From: an uncultured Clostridia bacterium
GTDB taxonomy: Bacteria > Bacillota > Clostridia > Saccharofermentanales > Saccharofermentanaceae
DNA length: 18,138 nucleotides
Assembly (NCBI GenBank): GCA_946405115.1
Contig: CAMJGB010000012.1
Span: 1 to 18,138, forward strand
Direction: 5' to 3'
In this document: positions 10,812-18,041 of the stretch, piece by piece
Position numbering within the stretch: the stretch's first letter is position 1
Layout: each line of letters begins with the position of its first letter
The notes under the pieces: generated by a model
What the model saw: the letters and a program-made list of their open reading frames with translations, nothing else
Told to the model about the DNA's origin: nothing
Database searches by the model: none
Translations under genes and position numbers: made by a program

Positions 10812-11624
10812 TTAATATCCCATTTGTTTGAGTTCAATGGCTATATCACGGTAGAAATCAACGATGTCCGTAATGCCGTCTAACTTCTTCTTAGTGAAGG
10901 GACGACGCCTTAGATCAACCTCATCACAGTGAGAGATTCCGCGTCCCGTTGCACTTGTAAAATGTCCTCTGAAGTTAGTCCACTTAACGGCTCTTGGTGT
11001 AAGCAATCCGTCGTTCTCACCCTCTACCATTCTTACAACAAGATTCGGGAACCACATGAGCATGTCGCCCGTAATCTTCTTGCAGGTAAAAGCATAGCTT
11101 TGGTAGTAGATATCAGGATCATCAGGATTAGACTCGTTAAATCTTGAAGCTTCGCCTGTCCTGAAGCTTTGTATCGAACTATAAGTTCCGGGGTTACGGT
11201 CACCTAATATCCTGAACCAGATGTCGGTAAAAAAGCACCCGATCCTTATAAGAAAATCCGGCAGCTTAAGAAGCTTATCCACTGTATAGGAACCATTATG
11301 CGGAGTGTTGATGGTCGTAACCGTCGCGATAAGATCGTTGATCTTCAATGTCGATATCGCATACCTTATATCAAGGCCGCCCTTCGAGTGCGCGATGACA
11401 TTAAACTTCTCTATGTGATTCTCGGAAGCGATCTTCCTAATCCTGTCTGCAAGATACTTCGCATTGTCTTCGATGGAACCGCAGCTGTCCTGATTGCCGT
11501 AATAAACCAAGGCGCCTTCGCTCTCGAGAACGCCCGGAATCCTGCCCCAGTAATTAAGATGCTTCCTGTCGCGGAAACCCATGCCGTGAACAAGCAGTAT
11601 CGGATAGCGGAACGACTCCATCAT
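10812..11624 (-). CDS. Alpha/beta-hydrolase, lipase/acylesterase type (soluble paralog)
   Basis: A 270-residue alpha/beta-hydrolase of the triacylglycerol lipase/EstA-like group. It has the oxyanion strand YPILLVHGMGFRD (residues 7-19), the nucleophile elbow AHSKGG with Ser80, the acid Asp205 in GENDGLL and the catalytic His232 in GRGISHCDEVD. The strand TINTPHNGS after the elbow is typical. There is no signal peptide or membrane segment, so it is probably cytoplasmic. It aligns throughout with the catalytic half of the upstream gene product, pointing to a tandem duplication. The start codon overlaps the upstream stop (ATGA, 11621-11624), so the two are translationally coupled. Substrate is unknown; a lipid or other acyl ester is likely. 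Confidence 0.9.
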   Translation of the reverse strand: MMESFRYPILLVHGMGFRDRKHLNYWGRIPGVLESEGALVYYGNQDSCGSIEDNAKYLADRIRKIASENHIEKFNVIAHSKGGLDIRYAISTLKINDLIATVTTINTPHNGSYTVDKLLKLPDFLIRIGCFFTDIWFRILGDRNPGTYSSIQSFRTGEASRFNESNPDDPDIYYQSYAFTCKKITGDMLMWFPNLVVRMVEGENDGLLTPRAVKWTNFRGHFTSATGRGISHCDEVDLRRRPFTKKKLDGITDIVDFYRDIAIELKQMGY

Positions 11625-12949
11625 AAACCTTTCTGCTTAAGTCCGCTTACGATATCGACGTATGTTTCTCTTACATCGAAGCCGTCGATATTCTCACGCA
11701 TAAGGTCGATCATGTCGCCGTGCGTAATACCTCTGCTCTTCTTGGGAGATACGTAAGTAAAGTCTGCACCCCACTTCATGGAAGGGATCGATACAAGACC
11801 GTCGTTAGGTCCGTCGAAGTAATTTACGAGGTGATAAGAAAGGTTCAGAGGGAACCTTCCGCTTGCTGCACGAACTGACTTGGAACCGATACTCTGGTAG
11901 TAAACACCATCTATATCCGGGCACTTCTCGTTAAAGGTCTTTGCCGCCTCCGAAGTAAGGTCAGATACGGCTGCGATGAAGTCGGGATTCTTGTCACCAA
12001 CTTTTCGAAGTGCTGCGTTATACTGCGATGCCACGGTATTCTTAAGTGCCACCGGAGCCTTGCCGAGAAGGTAGTCGGCGAACTGGCAGCCACGGTGCGG
12101 CGTGTTTACTGTAGTAAGAGAAGCAACATAAGGTGCCATGCCGAAAAGCGTAATCGCTGCTCTTGAATCGAGACCGCCCTTCGAGTGCGCGATGATGTTA
12201 ACCTTGCCGCAGCCTGTCTGATCCACGATCTCCTTGATCCTTGCAGCCAACTGCTTGCCGCAGTCTTCGATGGAGCCCGCAGACTCCTGGTTACCGTAAT
12301 AGATGGTAGCGCCGTTTGCCTCAAGGTCAGCGGGAACACGTCCCCAGTAGTTGAAGTTCTTGAAGTCTCTGAAGAACACGCCGTGTACCATAAGAAGCGG
12401 GTACTTCGTAGCGCAGATCTGGTCTCCCCTTCTCTTCTCGTTAAGGTAGTATCTTGAGCTCTCGTCCTTATACTCTCTATAAGTAAGCTTTATGATGTAA
12501 CCCAATGCGATGAGGTGTGCGACAGGGATCATGCCGCAGAGGATACCTATGAGTCTCCACTTAAGACCAATCTGCTTGGATGTGATATAAACCCTGATGA
12601 TACCGTTCCAGAAGATGAGGTTGCCGACTACGATATCGATGATGATAGTAGCGATTACAGTGCGCTCGCCGAAGTCCCATCCGTTCATGACAAGGTATGT
12701 TGTAAGTAAGATCGCATCAGCGACGCATGTTATAAGAAATTCTATAAGAAGTGCTGTTCCACGCTGCGTGTTCTTAAGTCCCGCAAGAGGGAATCTTTTG
12801 AACGACGGGCATATGAGACAGAAGATAAAAATCAACGACAAAACAATGTATGCCGGCACGAGATAAAGCGGCTCCTGCGGGATGCCCGCAAGATCAAATA
12901 TGATCAGCAGATTAGATATAAGAATAAAAACTATAGTCGCCAGAAACAT
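11621..12949 (-). CDS. Membrane-anchored alpha/beta-hydrolase, lipase type
   Basis: A 442-residue protein. Residues 1-155 contain about five membrane segments (roughly 3-21, 28-48, 66-88, 96-118 and 131-154); residues 180-442 are a lipase-type alpha/beta-hydrolase. The hydrolase half shows YPLLMVHGVFFRD (183-195), the nucleophile Ser256 in AHSKGG, the acid Asp383 in GPNDGLV and His410 in RGITHGDMID. AAGGAGAG precedes the ATG by 7 bases and overlaps the end of the radical SAM gene, which ends 2 bases before. It shares long identical stretches with the next gene (NYWGR, YYGNQ, GSIED, AHSKGGLD), so the pair arose by duplication with gain or loss of the membrane domain. The enzyme probably acts at the membrane on acyl lipids; this is inference. 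Confidence 0.9.
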   Translation of the reverse strand: MFLATIVFILISNLLIIFDLAGIPQEPLYLVPAYIVLSLIFIFCLICPSFKRFPLAGLKNTQRGTALLIEFLITCVADAILLTTYLVMNGWDFGERTVIATIIIDIVVGNLIFWNGIIRVYITSKQIGLKWRLIGILCGMIPVAHLIALGYIIKLTYREYKDESSRYYLNEKRRGDQICATKYPLLMVHGVFFRDFKNFNYWGRVPADLEANGATIYYGNQESAGSIEDCGKQLAARIKEIVDQTGCGKVNIIAHSKGGLDSRAAITLFGMAPYVASLTTVNTPHRGCQFADYLLGKAPVALKNTVASQYNAALRKVGDKNPDFIAAVSDLTSEAAKTFNEKCPDIDGVYYQSIGSKSVRAASGRFPLNLSYHLVNYFDGPNDGLVSIPSMKWGADFTYVSPKKSRGITHGDMIDLMRENIDGFDVRETYVDIVSGLKQKGL

Positions 12950-12951
12950 CG

Positions 12952-14043
12952 TTATCTCTCCTTATTCAACAGCGCTTCAACCAACGCTCTTTTCTCATAC
13001 AATACGCAGCCGCCTTCATGATCGTCGTTAAGAAGTCCGCCGTCCTGTAACGCCGTAAACAACGGTGACTTCAAAGCTTCCCTAAGTGAAGTCTCCCGGA
13101 CATTTATGTCCGAATACGGCGAGAAAGGACAGGGCTCAGCACCGCCTATAGAATTGATGTGGAAGAACCCTCTGCCTGCAGCTACGCAGCCACCGCTGTT
13201 CTTCTCATCGCCGGGGAATGAGATGTATACCATCTCCGGGTGTTCTTCACGAAGACGTGCAATCTCATTCGTAAGATATTCGCGTTCCGCATCCCCGGGA
13301 GCAAGTTCCTTACTGTCGTCAGTTACGGGTACAAACTCCACGTAAATCACAGCCTTACAGCCGCGGTCAGAAAGCTCTTTCAGGAAAGACTCCGAAGAGA
13401 CTTCACGCAAGTTCTCGGTGGTGACCGTTACTGAAGCCCCGAAGATAAGTCCCTTCTCATGAAGCTTATCCATATTTCCGATTAATTGATCGTAGACACC
13501 TTCACCTCGGCGGGCATCGGTAATTTCCTTCCCGCCCTCAATGCTCACAACAGGTATGAGGTTGCGGCACTTGTCAAAAAGTTCGAAGTAGCGACCGTTA
13601 AGGAACGTGCCGTTCGTAAATATCGGGAACAGGATATTGGGACAATTTCCCGCGGCTTCAATGACATCCCTTCTAAGCATCGGCTCACCGCCTGCAAGCA
13701 ATATAAAACTGATTCCAAGGTCATCCGCTTCCTTAAAGATCATCAGCCATTCTTCACCTGTCAGCTGCTTTACCGGAACCTCATCTACTGTCGCGTGATT
13801 GCATCTTGAATAGCAACCTGCGCAGTGAAGATTACACTGACTGGTAATGCTGGCGATCAGGAAAGGCGGAATATGTTCGCCACTAGCTTCAGCCTTACTT
13901 CTCTTCTGGGAAGCTGCGCGGCTTGCAAGGGCAAATTTTGCCATGAAGGCACTCTCCTTAGGGTTCTTTAAGGTTGCCTTAATTATGTCGCCTACGACGC
14001 GCTCCACGCCGCGGGTCATGTATGTCTGTATATCAAAGCTCAT
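12952..14043 (-). CDS. Radical SAM protein with SPASM-like C-terminal Cys, 5' end abutting a mobile element
   Basis: A radical SAM enzyme with the cluster motif CNLHCAGC (three Cys spaced 3 and 2 apart), followed by the GGEP motif about 40 residues later and by C-terminal cysteines (GGCVAAGRGF, EPCPFSP, GGCVLY) that suggest an auxiliary cluster of the SPASM/twitch type. The reaction is unknown. The start is unclear. The ATG at 14043, used here, gives 363 residues but has no Shine-Dalgarno sequence and overlaps the recombinase stop codon. An ATG at 13944 has AAGGAGAG at 7-8 bases and would give 330 residues, with the Cys motif 37 residues in. Residues between the two starts look native to me (RGVERVVGDIIKATLKNP), so an element insertion probably removed the original leader. 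It heads an operon with the two lipases (2-base gap). Confidence 0.85.
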   Translation of the reverse strand: MSFDIQTYMTRGVERVVGDIIKATLKNPKESAFMAKFALASRAASQKRSKAEASGEHIPPFLIASITSQCNLHCAGCYSRCNHATVDEVPVKQLTGEEWLMIFKEADDLGISFILLAGGEPMLRRDVIEAAGNCPNILFPIFTNGTFLNGRYFELFDKCRNLIPVVSIEGGKEITDARRGEGVYDQLIGNMDKLHEKGLIFGASVTVTTENLREVSSESFLKELSDRGCKAVIYVEFVPVTDDSKELAPGDAEREYLTNEIARLREEHPEMVYISFPGDEKNSGGCVAAGRGFFHINSIGGAEPCPFSPYSDINVRETSLREALKSPLFTALQDGGLLNDDHEGGCVLYEKRALVEALLNKER

Positions 14044-15724
14044 TCTTACTAAGAAGTGTAACGCACTCGACACTATTTCCATTGTCCAAACTCATATACA
14101 GTCTCTCGCTTCCTATTATAGGTAAGGAGAACTCAATCTCCTTAAGCCATTGTCCATTGGGCTGCTTGTCCTCATATATATTAATCTCGCTAATGAGGAT
14201 GGACAGCAGATTGTGCTTCTCTTCGTCGTTCATCTTACTATAGAGAGTATCGAAATACATCAGCGTTTTATATATGTTATCGGCTTCAAGCTTTGAGGTG
14301 TTGATTGAAACCTTCTTTTGTCTTGCGACCATTAAATCTGCTTCTATCTCTTCAATCTTGTCGTAAAGAGCATATATTCTATCGGACAGGTCCGACCTAA
14401 TGAGATCAAAATGTTTATCATCAGGATTAAGCGAATCAGATTCTTCTATAAGTTTGCTTTTCATAGACAGAACTCTTCTTAATTCACCCTCCAAGGTCGC
14501 TATTTCCTTATCCAGTTCCAGAGTATCAACTTTTGACTCTATGCGATTCTTCATAACGTCAGCGAATTCCGGCTTTCTTACCAGCTTGATGATTATTTCT
14601 TCGACTGCAGTTTCAATCATTTTTGCATTGATTTGCTTCGCATAATTACACTTATGTCCCATTACACCCTGACGGTGCTTGCACGCATAGTAATAGTAAT
14701 CTTTGTAAAGCTCGCCATTGCCCTTTCGCTTCCTTGCAGTGTTGTGATACATTGCTGCTCCGCATACGGGGCAACGAAGAAGTCCCGTAAGAAGATGGTT
14801 CTTACCATTGCCACCATCCTTCTTTCGTACATATGTCTTCGCATATAGCTCTAGTTTTGCTTGAGATAATGCCCATGTCTCATCATCAATTATCGCTTCA
14901 TGAAGACCGTCAACGAGGAGATAGTTCTTCTGGCAGACTTGCTTATAGTCGTTACGGGTTCCATGAACTTTCTCTGTTCTGCGCCTTCCGTAAGCTATCT
15001 TGCCGTTATACACAGGATTATGAAGGATTGCCTTTATAAAGTATGTTGAGAAGTATTCATTTTTCCCGTTCTGTCTTATCTTCTTAGTATAGCCATGAGT
15101 TTGAAGGTATTTAGCGATACCTGTAATCCCGAGTTCTGTATTAACATATTTATCGAAGATTATTCGTATAATGGCAGCTTCGTCTTCTTCAATATGCAGC
15201 ACTCCATTGTCCAGACTGTATCCATATGGAGCAAACCCGCCGTTCCATTTACCCTCACGTGCTTTCTGAAGCCTTCCTTCCATTGTTTGAATCTTGATGT
15301 TATCACGTTCAATTTCAGCAACGGCAGATAATACAGATATTATCAGCTTGCCAGCATCCTTGGATGAATCAATACCGTCCTCTACGCATATCAGGTTAAC
15401 GCCAAAGTCCTGCATCGTCTGTAAAGTCGATAATACATCAGCGGCATTTCTTCCGAATCTTGATAACTTGAATACGAGTACATATGATACGGGATCTTTA
15501 CCTTCCGTTATGTCCCTTATCATTTGGGAAAACGCCGGTCTGCCCTCGATAGACTTTCCCGACTTACCTGCATCTTCATACTCGCCGACAATCTCGTAAT
15601 TATTGTACTCTGCGAACATACGCATCCTGTTCTTTTGAGCGTCAAGGGAATACCCGTCAACCTGCAAAGCGGTTGATACACGGGTATACATATATACCTT
15701 TTTCTTTTCTTCCATTATTATCAC
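14033..15724 (-). CDS. Large serine recombinase (integrase/excisionase of the element)
   Basis: A 563-residue site-specific recombinase that integrates and excises the element. The resolvase domain (about 9-155) has the catalytic Ser17 in YTRVST and the Arg-containing FKLSRFGRNAADV motif. The recombinase domain runs about 160-275, and a zinc ribbon uses Cys318, Cys321, Cys348 and Cys359. A long coiled coil (about 395-470), which controls directionality in this family, precedes the C-terminal tail. A GTG at 15724 overlaps the repressor stop (GTGA); the ATG at 15715, with GGAAGAG upstream, is the likelier start. The last codons run into host sequence: the stop at 14033-14035 lies inside the start region of the radical SAM gene. 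Confidence 0.95.
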   Translation of the reverse strand: MIIMEEKKKVYMYTRVSTALQVDGYSLDAQKNRMRMFAEYNNYEIVGEYEDAGKSGKSIEGRPAFSQMIRDITEGKDPVSYVLVFKLSRFGRNAADVLSTLQTMQDFGVNLICVEDGIDSSKDAGKLIISVLSAVAEIERDNIKIQTMEGRLQKAREGKWNGGFAPYGYSLDNGVLHIEEDEAAIIRIIFDKYVNTELGITGIAKYLQTHGYTKKIRQNGKNEYFSTYFIKAILHNPVYNGKIAYGRRRTEKVHGTRNDYKQVCQKNYLLVDGLHEAIIDDETWALSQAKLELYAKTYVRKKDGGNGKNHLLTGLLRCPVCGAAMYHNTARKRKGNGELYKDYYYYACKHRQGVMGHKCNYAKQINAKMIETAVEEIIIKLVRKPEFADVMKNRIESKVDTLELDKEIATLEGELRRVLSMKSKLIEESDSLNPDDKHFDLIRSDLSDRIYALYDKIEEIEADLMVARQKKVSINTSKLEADNIYKTLMYFDTLYSKMNDEEKHNLLSILISEINIYEDKQPNGQWLKEIEFSLPIIGSERLYMSLDNGNSVECVTLLSKNEL

Positions 15725-16047
15725 TCTTCCTTTTTGCTGATCTGCTCGAAGTAAGCAAGGAGTCTTTTTCTTGATGAATCATCAGTATTCCTAAGCACTT
15801 CTATCATCCTTTTCTCCTCATCGGTGAGAATAAAATCAGGATCCGATTCTTCCGTTCCCTTTAATAAGTAGGCAGTGGAGATCCCTAAAGCTTCACAAAC
15901 AATAGGGATCTTCTCCGCCGTTGGATTTGTATGTTTTGTATTCCAGTCACTGATAGTGCTGGCTGTGATTCCCGTTCTTCTAGATAGTTCTCTAATACTT
16001 ACTCCGTTATCGTTCATTACCTTAAAAAGTCTTTCGTTTATCGTCAT
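15721..16047 (-). CDS. XRE family repressor of the element
   Basis: A 108-residue Cro/C1-type regulator. The helix-turn-helix sits at residues 1-60 (NGVSIRELSRRTGITASTISDWN, then TNPTAEKIPIVCEALGIS), followed by a charged C-terminal helix (DEEKRMIEVLRNTDDSSRKRLLAYFEQI) likely used for dimerization. ATG 16047 is chosen because GGAGG stands 6 bases upstream. A longer reading to 16101 would run through the promoter and palindrome and is unlikely. It overlaps the recombinase start and lies directly behind a 22-base palindrome and promoter, so it probably autoregulates and thereby controls recombinase synthesis. Confidence 0.92.
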   Translation of the reverse strand: MTINERLFKVMNDNGVSIRELSRRTGITASTISDWNTKHTNPTAEKIPIVCEALGISTAYLLKGTEESDPDFILTDEEKRMIEVLRNTDDSSRKRLLAYFEQISKKEE

Positions 16048-16057
16048 GAGAGGCCTC

Positions 16058-16111: not shown

Positions 16112-16296
16112 TCTATAGTCCGTTCGCACTGTGAAAGCAGACAGGCATATCTTTGCAATGTCTCAGTACGCTTATCATAGAAGTACCAGACCTCAGGAGT
16201 CGGTAAATCATCGATACCGAGACCATTTCCGTACTTTTCGATCATTCTTGCCAGGAAATCGGCAAGCCCATTCCATTTATCATTCATATTAATCAC
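16108..16296 (-). CDS. Small unknown protein downstream of relaxase
   Basis: A 59- to 62-residue protein I do not recognise. It begins with NDKWNGLADFLARMIEKYG, a probable amphipathic helix, followed by a Pro-containing turn and EVWYFYDKRTETLQRYACLL, and contains two Cys near the end. A GTG start would overlap the relaxase stop (GTGA at 16293-16296). The ATG at 16287, with AGGTGA 5 bases before it, is an alternative. The coupling to the relaxase suggests an accessory role in mobilization or relaxase regulation, by context only. Confidence 0.7.
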   Translation of the reverse strand: MINMNDKWNGLADFLARMIEKYGNGLGIDDLPTPEVWYFYDKRTETLQRYACLLSQCERTID

Positions 16297-17294
16297 CTGG
16301 CTATTCCGCCTTTACCCTTTCTTTTTAATAAGTTTTCTGTTTTTCTGCGAGCACGCTCCTTTTCTTCGAGTTCTTCCAGTAAACCCGGAGGCAGGAGACT
16401 AATCTGTTTTTGTAGTTTCTGCTGTTTGGCTTGAAGCTCATCAATCTGACCTTCACGTTCTTTGACGGCTTGCTCGAGTTCTTCCGTCTTTCCCTGCCAG
16501 TAATGACTGACATCTGCTTGTATTTCGATTCTTCTTTGAAGTCTCTCAACATGGTCGTTGACGGATTTGATCTGCTCCTTCATCTTTGCCATCTCGGGAG
16601 CATAACGGGAGATAAGTTCTATTGCCTGACTCTTTTTCTCTTTGCTCTTTATCATTCCGATATCACTGATAGCTTGAGAGATTTCTTCGTAATGCGACAT
16701 GAGCAAATCGGCATTCTTGAAAAGATATGTCGGCAAGTGTTCACGATGTGTAATCCGTTTGGGTATCCCTCGTTGAATACTGGGATAGTACTTCACCATA
16801 TGTCCATAGAAATCATCCTGTAGCTTTACGAGACCCTGCGGCCCGCCAATAATTGTCTTGGAAGACAGTTTTCCTTTGTCGGTAATGGGCACGAAGCAGA
16901 TATGCATGTGCGGACTATGTTCATCAAGATGGACTACTGCGGAAAGAATGTTGTCCTCTCCGAACTTATCTGCAAAGAATTCATATGCTCTTTTGAAAAA
17001 GGCTTCGATGCCGGCTTGCGACATGCCTTTGAAAAAGTCAGGCGAGGCCGTACATATACAATCTTGCATAACAACACTGTCTTTGCGCATTCGGCATCCG
17101 ACGGTCTGAATCCTTTTCAGGATCATATTCCTATAGCTGTCAGTTGGGTATTTTACGTGATAATCATAGCGGATACGACTGATATCAATATCCGGATTAC
17201 TCTTATACTCATCCTTCTGACGTTCATGGTGTTTTTCGAGTCGCCCTACGGCTCCCATTTTGCATTTGCTGATTCTCATTATTGCGTATGACAT
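16293..17294 (-). CDS. mobV: MobV (Mob/Pre) family relaxase
   Basis: A 333-residue relaxase of the pMV158 MobM/Pre type that nicks the origin of transfer and pilots the single strand. The N terminus MSYAIMRISKCK and the KHHERQ motif place His22 at the position of the catalytic His22 of MobM. The metal-binding HLDEHSPHMH lies at 122-131. PITDKGKLSSK and the following helix match the family. Residues about 225-325 form a long charged coiled coil (oligomerization or membrane contact), and the C terminus is strongly basic (KRKGKGG). AAAGGAA precedes the ATG by about 9 bases. A matching oriT lies about 360 bases upstream on the same strand. Confidence 0.95.
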   Translation of the reverse strand: MSYAIMRISKCKMGAVGRLEKHHERQKDEYKSNPDIDISRIRYDYHVKYPTDSYRNMILKRIQTVGCRMRKDSVVMQDCICTASPDFFKGMSQAGIEAFFKRAYEFFADKFGEDNILSAVVHLDEHSPHMHICFVPITDKGKLSSKTIIGGPQGLVKLQDDFYGHMVKYYPSIQRGIPKRITHREHLPTYLFKNADLLMSHYEEISQAISDIGMIKSKEKKSQAIELISRYAPEMAKMKEQIKSVNDHVERLQRRIEIQADVSHYWQGKTEELEQAVKEREGQIDELQAKQQKLQKQISLLPPGLLEELEEKERARRKTENLLKRKGKGGIAR

Positions 17295-17327: not shown

Positions 17328-17358
17328 CAAAATAAAAACCCCGCTTCTTTTAGCGAGG
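17328..17358 (-). terminator. Intrinsic terminator just upstream of the relaxase gene
   Basis: In the minus direction CCTCGCT pairs with AGCGGGG (17352-17358 and 17339-17345; one G-U pair) around a 6-base loop, followed directly by TTTTTATTTTG. It ends about 34 bases before the relaxase ATG, which leaves almost no room for a separate promoter, so it may act as an attenuator controlling relaxase transcription. Confidence 0.75.
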
Positions 17359-17422: not shown

Positions 17423-17622
17423 TTGCGGTTATCTTCGGTCTATACACCGCAACAGAGATAGAAGGACGCTTCTTATGTGGAATTGCCCGCAATAAGCGGC
17501 GGACAATTTCACAACGAAGCTTTGTTGTGTCGTTATAAGAGCGCGGGAATGGTGGCGCTCTTATATCTCCCCAACAACCTCGAATATCGTCGTACGGTCA
17601 GTCGTCCACTGGAAGACTGACC
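17423..17622. repeat. Cluster of inverted repeats between oriT and relaxase gene
   Basis: This 200-base non-coding stretch is almost entirely hairpins. TTGCGGT/ACCGCAA occurs at 17423-17429 and 17446-17452. AATTG...CCGC / GCGG...CAATT lies within 17481-17508. A 20-base near-palindrome centred on AAGCTT spans 17510-17529, with one mismatched pair. TATAAGAGCGC/GCGCTCTTATA is at 17534-17544 and 17555-17565 (11 perfect pairs), and GGTCAGTC/GACTGACC is at 17596-17603 and 17615-17622. On the transferred strand this is the first DNA to enter a recipient. Possible roles are a single-strand origin, a single-strand promoter, or relaxase binding. Confidence 0.7.
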
Positions 17623-17649
17623 TCCCTAGATATTCTTTCTATATCTGTG

Positions 17650-17681
17650 GGTGTAACACACTACACCTTGCAAGCAAGGTG
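17650..17681 (-). other. oriT: Origin of transfer (oriT), MobV/pMV158 type
   Basis: On the minus strand the ten bases TAGTGTGTTA (17663-17654) equal the published pMV158-family nick sequence TAGTGTG/TTA, putting the nick between 17657 and 17656. As in pMV158, one hairpin lies directly 5' of the nick (arms 17664-17671 and 17674-17681, CACCTTGC/GCAAGGTG, 2-base loop). A second, overlapping inverted repeat spans the nick (GGTGTA 17650-17655 with TACACC 17662-17667). It lies on the same strand as, and upstream of, the MobV relaxase gene. Confidence 0.88.
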
Positions 17682-17713
17682 GTGTGCAAGGGGCCCCCCT
17701 TGACCCCGTCATT

Positions 17714-17785
17714 CTAAGGTGGAAATCTACACGCAGGTACCGCTTCGCCCTGCGCGTACATTTCCATCATCCGATCCTGTAACAT
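17714..17785 (-). CDS. Putative 23-residue leader peptide
   Basis: A very short ORF with an unusually good translation signal: AAAGGAGG at 17793-17800, 7 bases before the ATG. The peptide starts MLQDRMMEMY, ends with a Cys-Arg-Phe-Pro-Pro stretch and stops with TAG. Nearly its whole second half is encoded inside a long imperfect hairpin (17720-17766). Product function is unknown. Two consecutive Pro codons just before the stop could stall a ribosome, which would fit a translation-sensing leader upstream of oriT and relaxase. It could also be a chance ORF. Confidence 0.45.
   Translation of the reverse strand: MLQDRMMEMYAQGEAVPACRFPP
17720..17766. repeat. Long imperfect hairpin overlapping the leader ORF
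   Basis: Three paired blocks separated by single symmetric mismatches: TGGAAAT/ATTTCCA (17720-17726, 17760-17766), TAC/GTA (17728-17730, 17756-17758) and CGCAGG/CCTGCG (17732-17737, 17749-17754), around an 11-base loop. That gives 16 pairs in total. It is not followed by a U-tract, so it is not a terminator. Confidence 0.65.
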
Positions 17786-17810
17786 ACCTTTTCCTCCTTT
17801 CGCATGTTTT

Positions 17811-17847
17811 AAAATCAAAAAAGCGGTTGCTCTTGTGAACAACCGCT
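17811..17847 (-). terminator. Intrinsic terminator between promoter and leader ORF
   Basis: In the minus direction AGCGGTTG and CAACCGCT (17840-17847 and 17822-17829, eight perfect pairs, 10-base loop) are followed by TTTTTTGATTTT. It lies about 70-100 bases after a strong promoter and directly before the ribosome binding site of the 23-residue ORF. This is the layout of an attenuated leader or of a small RNA gene. Confidence 0.85.
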
Positions 17848-17922
17848 ATGTAGTGCAGATATGTTATTGTAAATACTAGGCAATTCATTCATTTGGAAAT
17901 TCGCATAATTACCCAAACCCAT
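17815..17922 (-). ncRNA. Short transcript of about 100 nt: small RNA or attenuated leader
   Basis: A transcript from the promoter at 17921-17949 would start near 17914 and end at the terminator near 17815. An open frame of 35 codons (ATG 17920-17922, AAAAGGG 7 bases upstream, TGA inside the U-tract at 17815-17817) covers the same bases. However, its ATG overlaps the -10 box, so it would lie upstream of the expected start. A shorter in-frame start, beginning MNELP, lies inside the transcript without a clear ribosome binding site. Small RNA, leader peptide or leader of the downstream genes cannot be told apart here. Confidence 0.4.
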
Positions 17923-17949
17923 CGTACTACCCTTTTCAAAGCTTGTCAA
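17921..17949 (-). promoter_or_regulatory. Strong sigma-A type promoter reading toward oriT and relaxase
   Basis: On the minus strand TTGACA (17944-17949) and TACGAT (17921-17926) are spaced by exactly 17 bases. No other promoter of this quality is seen between here and the relaxase gene, so it may drive the mobilization genes through two terminators, or only the short transcript. Confidence 0.7.
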
Positions 17950-18041
17950 GAAGCATATTACGCTCTCATAAATGGTAAGTAACATTTGGTTAGCATTCTT
18001 ACGGGAATATAATTATGTATGGTCGATGGTGGTAGTGGAAA

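Follow-up and report, generated by a model that had tools for sequence, protein, structure and literature searches.

Many mobilizable elements of Firmicutes carry a MobV relaxase, but we know of no settled account of how the second strand of chromosomal MobV elements is formed in the recipient. In the MOBV1 class, a GTGTG/TT core with overlapping inverted repeats IR1, IR2 and IR3 has been given as the mark of an oriT, and MobM of pMV158 is reported to switch IR3 to IR1 before it cuts between G and T (PMC5863519). In one reported mating, transfer of pMV158 lacking ssoU was down 300-1000-fold. ICEBs1 has a single-strand origin (sso) downstream of its oriT, which has been argued to delay the duplex state of the att region until the circle is sealed (PMC4595007), and single-strand promoters are reported from the leading region of F-type plasmids (PMC11541004). 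In the clostridial locus described here, the oriT core is of the known pMV158 kind; what is new is a predicted foldback that follows directly on the nick.

The window, as we call the whole 18,138-nt stretch of DNA analysed here, is one entire contig of an incomplete genome (1.85 Mb in 243 contigs). An earlier note on it had proposed a TAGTGTG/TTA core on the relaxase-coding strand, an 8-bp hairpin 5' of the nick, a second inverted repeat spanning the nick, and cleavage between 17657 and 17656. Core and repeats are present as described: on the minus strand, the site reads CACAC-CACCTTGC-TT-GCAAGGTG-TAGTGTG/TTACACC, with the core at 17663-17654, IR1 (CACCTTGC-TT-GCAAGGTG, 8 bp) at 17664-17681 and IR2 (GGTGTA/TACACC, 6 bp) at 17667-17662 and 17655-17650, and the predicted nick position is correct by the pMV158 rule. 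IR1 appears in the sequence, in the inverted-repeat list and in the predicted fold, where it has 7 pairs and a loop of 4 bases; IR2 appears in the sequence. Absent from that note were IR3, seen in the fold as CACAC/GTGTG around IR1 (17686-17682 and 17661-17657, minus strand), a hairpin CAAGGGG/CCCCTTG from the inverted-repeat list that lies directly 5' of the oriT (17687-17702, minus strand), and a folded domain of 215 nt 3' of the nick. The site thus shows the GTGTG/TT core and all three overlapping repeats of a MOBV1 oriT.

Taken by itself, the 10-mer TAGTGTGTTA is weak evidence, since 0.79 matches with up to one mismatch are expected in the window by chance; it occurs once (17654-17663, minus strand), and no second match was found at that tolerance. 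Folded as a single strand, the oriT (66 nt) has ordinary stability (z -1.47; 19 of 200 shuffles fold equally well). It is therefore conservation in other loci, not fold stability, that lifts the site above chance: TAGTGTGTTA recurs, similarly surrounded, at 17 of 23 further loci from the first relaxase search (L002-L024), and the pattern of core plus IR1 finds such an oriT in 57 of 87 loci among the matches listed, namely the 80 best from scanning genome contigs with a profile, six additional loci and the window itself. The remaining 30 have no oriT by this pattern; they comprise L109 and L112 (about 100 nt before the gene), L113, where by eye a transposase-like region lies ahead of the gene, and 27 others. 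Judged by its sequence, the site is almost certainly an oriT.

Among the relatives, IR1 has undergone a compensating change in L016 (CTTGTTTACAAG), and the hairpin 5' of the oriT reads CAAGAGG/CCTCTTG, likewise compensated, in L014 and L022, the latter with one IR1 pair broken near the loop. The nick core also varies in the group: TAGTGGG and TAGTGAG occur, the former, in more distant loci, coupled with a change from CACAC to CCCAC in the IR3 arm (L042, L117, L118, L120-L123 and L129). The earlier note had described the stem as unlike that of pMV158, which agrees with the comparison to a pMV158-like plasmid oriT (L190, ACTTTAT..ATAAAGT), and had seen in this a case of relaxase-oriT co-variation. 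Across the 18 clusters introduced below, relaxase identity shows small but significant correlations with IR1-arm identity (Mantel r 0.27, p 0.009) and with core identity (r 0.34, p 0.0025), but the IR1 arm poorly predicts how related two relaxases are: the arm TGCAAGGTG is found with relaxases just 37-53% identical to the window's, and relaxases 46-50% identical have other arms. Co-variation of relaxase and oriT is thus at most weakly indicated by these sequences.

The relaxase gene (16293-17294, minus strand) starts 362 nt downstream of the nick and encodes 333 amino acids, which score 162.5 bits with Pfam Mob_Pre (cutoff 25.5) and 160.4 with NCBIfam MobV (cutoff 100). Its sole relative with a solved structure is MobM (4lvi), with which the motifs KHHER (HxxR, motif I) and HLDEHSPHMH (HxDExxPHxH, motif III) align; H22, H122, H129 and H131 are invariant in 25 homologues. 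The profiles and the MobM relative, together with the conservation of the site, bear out the earlier assignment to a MobV oriT in a chromosomal element. Saccharofermentans is the name attached to some of the homologous relaxases and loci; no relatives were found in viral contigs. Profiles further identify, on the same strand, an XRE/HTH_3-type regulator (15721-16050) and a large serine recombinase with resolvase, recombinase and zinc-ribbon domains (14033-15724); a large serine recombinase (TnpX) is also what Tn4451-type elements use. No T4SS gene was seen among the open reading frames between 14.0 and 18.0 kb.

By repeat comparison, a 9-bp repeat, GTAAGAATG, was found on the integrase side (14041-14049, minus strand) and on the oriT side (17994-18002, minus strand). 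With these as its ends, the element would measure about 4 kb, and ATG AGC TTT GAT would be restored to a radical SAM frame, most homologues of which start aligning at residue 14-15 of the frame as listed. Arithmetic puts the chance expectation for the compared zones at about 0.04 such repeats, and a search for an empty, uninterrupted insertion site found none, so that we treat GTAAGAATG as a candidate att only; CTTCTT and AGCTTTGA were also considered as att cores and ranked behind it. With integrase and relaxase adjacent and its ends taken from the 9-bp repeat alone, the region around the oriT is a candidate serine-integrase mobilizable element of about 4 kb. Beside the radical SAM gene, the candidate insertion site, lie two adjacent alpha/beta-hydrolase (lipase-like) genes (10812-12949).

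Two genomes contain near-identical oriT-relaxase modules. In G022, the identity is 96% over 1,667 bp and the adjoining recombinase is 50% identical; in G067, it is 94% over 805 bp up to a contig edge, and no integrase match was found. In both, the similarity to the window ends near 17950. A further fragment in G022 (L025:11605-11789) matches the 3' portion of the integrase gene of the window at 80.5% identity and is probably left over from a different element. Near the oriT-side end of the window's element lies a promoter-like TTGACA-17-TACGAT (17921-17949, minus strand), from a scan that gave 2 sites where 2.4 are expected by chance. Between this site and the oriT, we noted by eye two tiny reading frames of 35 and 23 codons (17714-17922, minus strand), of which the second follows AAAGGAGG; the scan also placed a terminator-like hairpin there (17847-17822). 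L105 has a similar promoter and hairpin ahead of its oriT.

The first 215 nt of the transferred strand (17442-17656, minus strand) are predicted to form a foldback, in which a helix from +2 to +214 relative to the nick encloses three branches. Its fold is far more stable than expected (z -9.40 as RNA and -8.15 as DNA, with 0 of 200 shuffles as good; z -7.79 for the complement as RNA), and the probability of the closing helix in the window is 0.62. In five relatives (L029, L032, L037, L039 and L044), the stretch from oriT to gene is conserved above the relaxase gene itself, at 82-85% over 326-345 bp versus 69-70%. In an alignment of 19 sequences, 98.2% of cells are paired. Changes on both sides affect 21 pairs (102 cells), all of them within the foldback's 73 pairs and none within the 17 pairs of the oriT hairpins. 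None of 500 shuffles reaches 21 pairs or 102 cells (means 12.6 and 34.1), and sliding the partners leaves at most 7 pairs that change on both sides, in a control that favours a structure derived from these very sequences; further pair types, 41 in all, do not exceed the shuffles (42.7). A covariance model of the window-type foldback (R1) matched 19 of 115 genomes of the family, all from one genus, and, under strict filters, 3 of 391 genomes of the class, again from that genus only. It follows that the letters of the foldback do not travel; its architecture does.

This architecture can be traced in the 57 oriT loci, which had been picked by core plus IR1, i.e. by sequence 5' of or at the nick, blind to what follows. 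One (L152) was too short and was dropped; at 75% identity over the 120 nt after the nick, the other 56 form 18 clusters, which are partly dependent (L117, L120 and L123 share similar closing arms). An anchored-helix score proved too crude for the window group and was replaced by pair probabilities. By these, positions +2 to +6 (0-based) pair with a stretch 60-300 nt downstream with a probability of at least 0.5 in 16 of the 18 clusters (12 at 0.8), while 25 of 216 positions drawn at random from these loci do so (7 at 0.8); DNA parameters give 15 of 18. The mean 5'-side probability of pairs spanning at least 60 nt is at most 0.09 from -28 to 0, rises to 0.79-0.94 from +2 to +8 and is 0.00 from +21 to +37, so that the profile of long-range pairing forms a step at the nick. 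In minimum-energy folds, 17 of the 18 clusters have a closing helix, which begins 1-4 nucleotides after the nick in 16 clusters and at nucleotide 6 in L123; the predicted domains measure 91-213 nt, and 15 hold two or three branches. The exceptions are L130, without a closing helix, L143, with a single hairpin (P 0.002), and L123, where the helix is weak; the fold of L125 contains a spurious outer pair. When arms are swapped between elements, the 5' arm pairs best with the downstream stretch of its own element in 14 of 18 clusters (all but L120, L123, L130 and L143), against 0 and 1 of 18 in the controls.

It could be argued that all this is an ordinary MobV oriT, in which inverted repeats happen to produce a fold that serves no purpose. 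Core and IR1-IR3 are indeed entirely pMV158-like, and the 215 nt 5' of the oriT are strongly folded as well (z at or below -4 in 8 of 19 loci, among them the window), so that fold strength alone does not single out the 3' side. Moreover, three plasmid MobV oriTs manage without a foldback. They come from 12 plasmids examined of 40 listed, out of 2,015 matching records; a loosened pattern gave candidates in 6 of them, and the three directly upstream of mob were counted, with probabilities of 0.00-0.02 for a foldback after the nick. Candidates downstream of the mob start (L189, P 0.56; L194, 0.23; L199, 0.00) were dropped as spurious, as was a second candidate in L190 (P 0.05). What a by-product would not account for is the anchoring at the nick, the outcome of the swap test and the covariation, and we consider this explanation very improbable. 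By the same sequence comparisons, the foldback is very probably a real, conserved part of this class of oriT. In some clusters, stop-free frames of up to 447 codons span its start, where an overlap with coding sequence is possible.

On which strand the domain acts is less clear-cut. In 14 of 18 clusters, the transferred strand has a better fold than the complementary one. A first count of 88 GU to 9 AC cells was discarded as proof of asymmetry, as it was biased by folding one strand; among pairs predicted on both strands, the ratio is 9:7 in the window group (A1) and 13:4 in the L126 cluster. The strand preference is therefore weak, which leaves room for a cruciform role in duplex DNA. The closing helices contain 254 Watson-Crick and 7 GU pairs, and so few GU pairs are low for an RNA.

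This last figure bears on the possibility that the foldback is a structured RNA, either a transcribed leader that controls the relaxase or a separate small RNA for mobilization like the sgm-sRNA of SGI1. The domain would have a very stable, covarying fold as RNA, and by eye there is a terminator-like hairpin with a T run before the relaxase gene (CCTCGCT-AAAAGA-AGCGGGG, 17329-17358, minus strand), missing from the output of the terminator and promoter scan; SGI1, for its part, is reported to require a small RNA encoded beside its oriT (PMC9299015). Yet the scan found no promoter-like site from 17850 to the domain or within the window's foldback. Rfam yielded no match in the window, where the foldback is not a member of any family at gathering score and the loose limit returned just three weak matches (E 0.36-3.3), and of 10 matches in 18 further loci none lay at the foldback; on these grounds, a known RNA family was rejected. 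Separately, Rfam DUF3800-XI and pemK RNAs lie near several elements (L102:5274-5321; L123:502-559 and 1270-1333; L042:2891-3001). An inverted repeat CAAGATGTCA and the terminator-like hairpin, both between foldback and relaxase gene, are absent from L029, L032 and L037 and present in most other relatives.

A leader role fails in loci where the oriT faces away from the relaxase gene or where none lies near. In cluster L126 (27 oriTs, 14 distinct sequences), 25 oriTs point away from the relaxase gene, lying on the other strand 220-308 nt upstream of it, and retain the foldback. Copies with no relaxase gene nearby match the covariance model in G084 and G023. Contigs 1 and 3 of G084 have in common a 554-bp unit of oriT and foldback (L102:6606-7156 and L103:6205-6758; 97% identity) in different flanks, and the copy in G023 (contig 6, L104) sits at a site orthologous to that on contig 1 of G084. 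Within the 14-kb stretches around these copies, searches with 18 queries at E 0.01 found no MobV gene; all 18 succeeded in the positive control. The units are possibly passengers mobilized in trans. At the right end of one (L103:6660-6756) lies a repeat of about 95 bp, which ten more genomes of this genus share with 84-90% identity, several of them near inverted copies of a second repeat. A further copy, on contig 80 of G016 (L101:1824-3216), has genes of IS21 type, istB and a transposase, behind it and probably represents one half of an element that was interrupted; by eye, L035 of the same genome has a transposase-like region ahead of its relaxase. Taken together, the opposite-facing oriTs and relaxase-less copies indicate that the domain travels with the oriT and not with the relaxase mRNA alone, and they rule out an attenuator of the relaxase as its sole role. 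A structured RNA of either kind seems improbable to us.

A second alternative starts from the sequence at the nick. TACACC is both the right arm of IR2 and the start of the closing helix, which suggests a switch, instead of or besides a role as a single-strand origin. IR2 could form before the cut; afterwards, the long closing helix would capture the 5' end from the left arm of IR2, blocking resealing and committing the strand to transfer, and at the end it would present a free TT for sealing, with no part in priming. The start of the helix at nucleotide 1-4 in 16 of the 17 clusters that have one would fit, and MobM is described as working via mutually exclusive hairpins at the oriT, although IR2 is reported as not detected on supercoiled pMV158 (PMC5863519). 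In our folds, too, IR2 pairing is never probable, with upstream pairing of at most 0.165. Moreover, a switch needs the closing helix alone and leaves the conserved inner branches of the window group unexplained. As the main role, a nick switch is doubtful.

The reading that we prefer, tentatively and aware that it may well prove wrong, is that the foldback acts mainly like an sso or ssi. The sequences give us an oriT, a covarying predicted fold, its anchoring at the nick, and its presence without, or facing away from, a relaxase gene. The 5' end with its bound relaxase is displaced and transferred before any other DNA. An element that closes at this end, keeps its pairing while its letters change and is kept without a relaxase gene should act in cis on the strand, and a single-strand origin is the best-known function of that sort. 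The relaxase would nick at 17657/17656 and remain bound to the 5' T, and the transferred strand would open with this T and the immediately self-closing 215-nt foldback. Freed from the duplex, the latter may become a rigid, mostly double-stranded body beside the relaxase and start second-strand synthesis in the manner of a single-strand origin, like sso1 of ICEBs1 or Frpo/ssi of F-type plasmids; since att lies across the nick from it, its position would keep the att region from becoming duplex until the circle is closed, as argued for ICEBs1. Strong secondary structure on the transferred strand, as expected of an sso, is predicted here. TAGCGT is a known sso motif; it is absent from the foldback in all 18 clusters, with one match 3' of the foldback in L146, and for this reason we do not assign the foldback to a known sso class. 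The order oriT-mob-ssoA reported for IMESag-rpsI also counts against an sso at this place (PMC5090054).

With some, if limited, confidence, we propose that the MobV oriTs of these clostridia comprise a second half that has no name yet: a closed, multibranch foldback from the nick that would form the physical head of the transferred strand and constitute a new class of leading end, be it sso, nick switch or both. In such a class, the letters would be free to change and the anchoring at the nick fixed, and the foldback would not derive from any sso, Frpo or RNA family already known. Among titles and abstract openings, a range that mostly leaves subscription papers outside, we found no description of such a domain. 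If the foldback works, oriT definitions that end at the IR1-IR3 core omit part of the origin. It may also serve as a mark for finding oriTs with diverged letters, and it would make the control of second-strand synthesis or resealing by the 5' end directly testable.

Among known systems, the sgm-sRNA of SGI1 is likewise structured and encoded next to the oriT of a mobilizable island (PMC9299015), but it acts as RNA, and the mobilization proteins of that island are recombinase-like. Tn4451-type elements are, by their description, MobV mobilizable elements as well (PMC5704250). IMESag-rpsI resembles our candidate element as an integrated streptococcal mobilizable element with a MobV relaxase and an IR1-IR3 oriT; peculiar to it are an oriT of 42 bp, the nick GTGCG/T and ssoA after mob, and the consulted part of its description mentions no fold between nick and mob (PMC5090054). 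With pMV158 and the MOBV1 class (MobM), the locus shares the TAGTGTG/TTA core, the overlapping IR1-IR3 and an oriT upstream of the MobV gene on the same strand, and it differs in the letters of the IR1 stem; the distance from nick to gene, 362 nt in the window, is 56-174 nt in the three plasmid oriTs, those without a foldback. Finally, sso1 of ICEBs1 and Frpo/ssi of F-type plasmids are described as single-stranded DNA with structure, located downstream of oriT in the transferred strand, like the predicted foldback. Unlike them, the fold described here starts right at the nick, and one element's letters bear no relation to those of another; the sequence comparison with these systems covered the TAGCGT motif.
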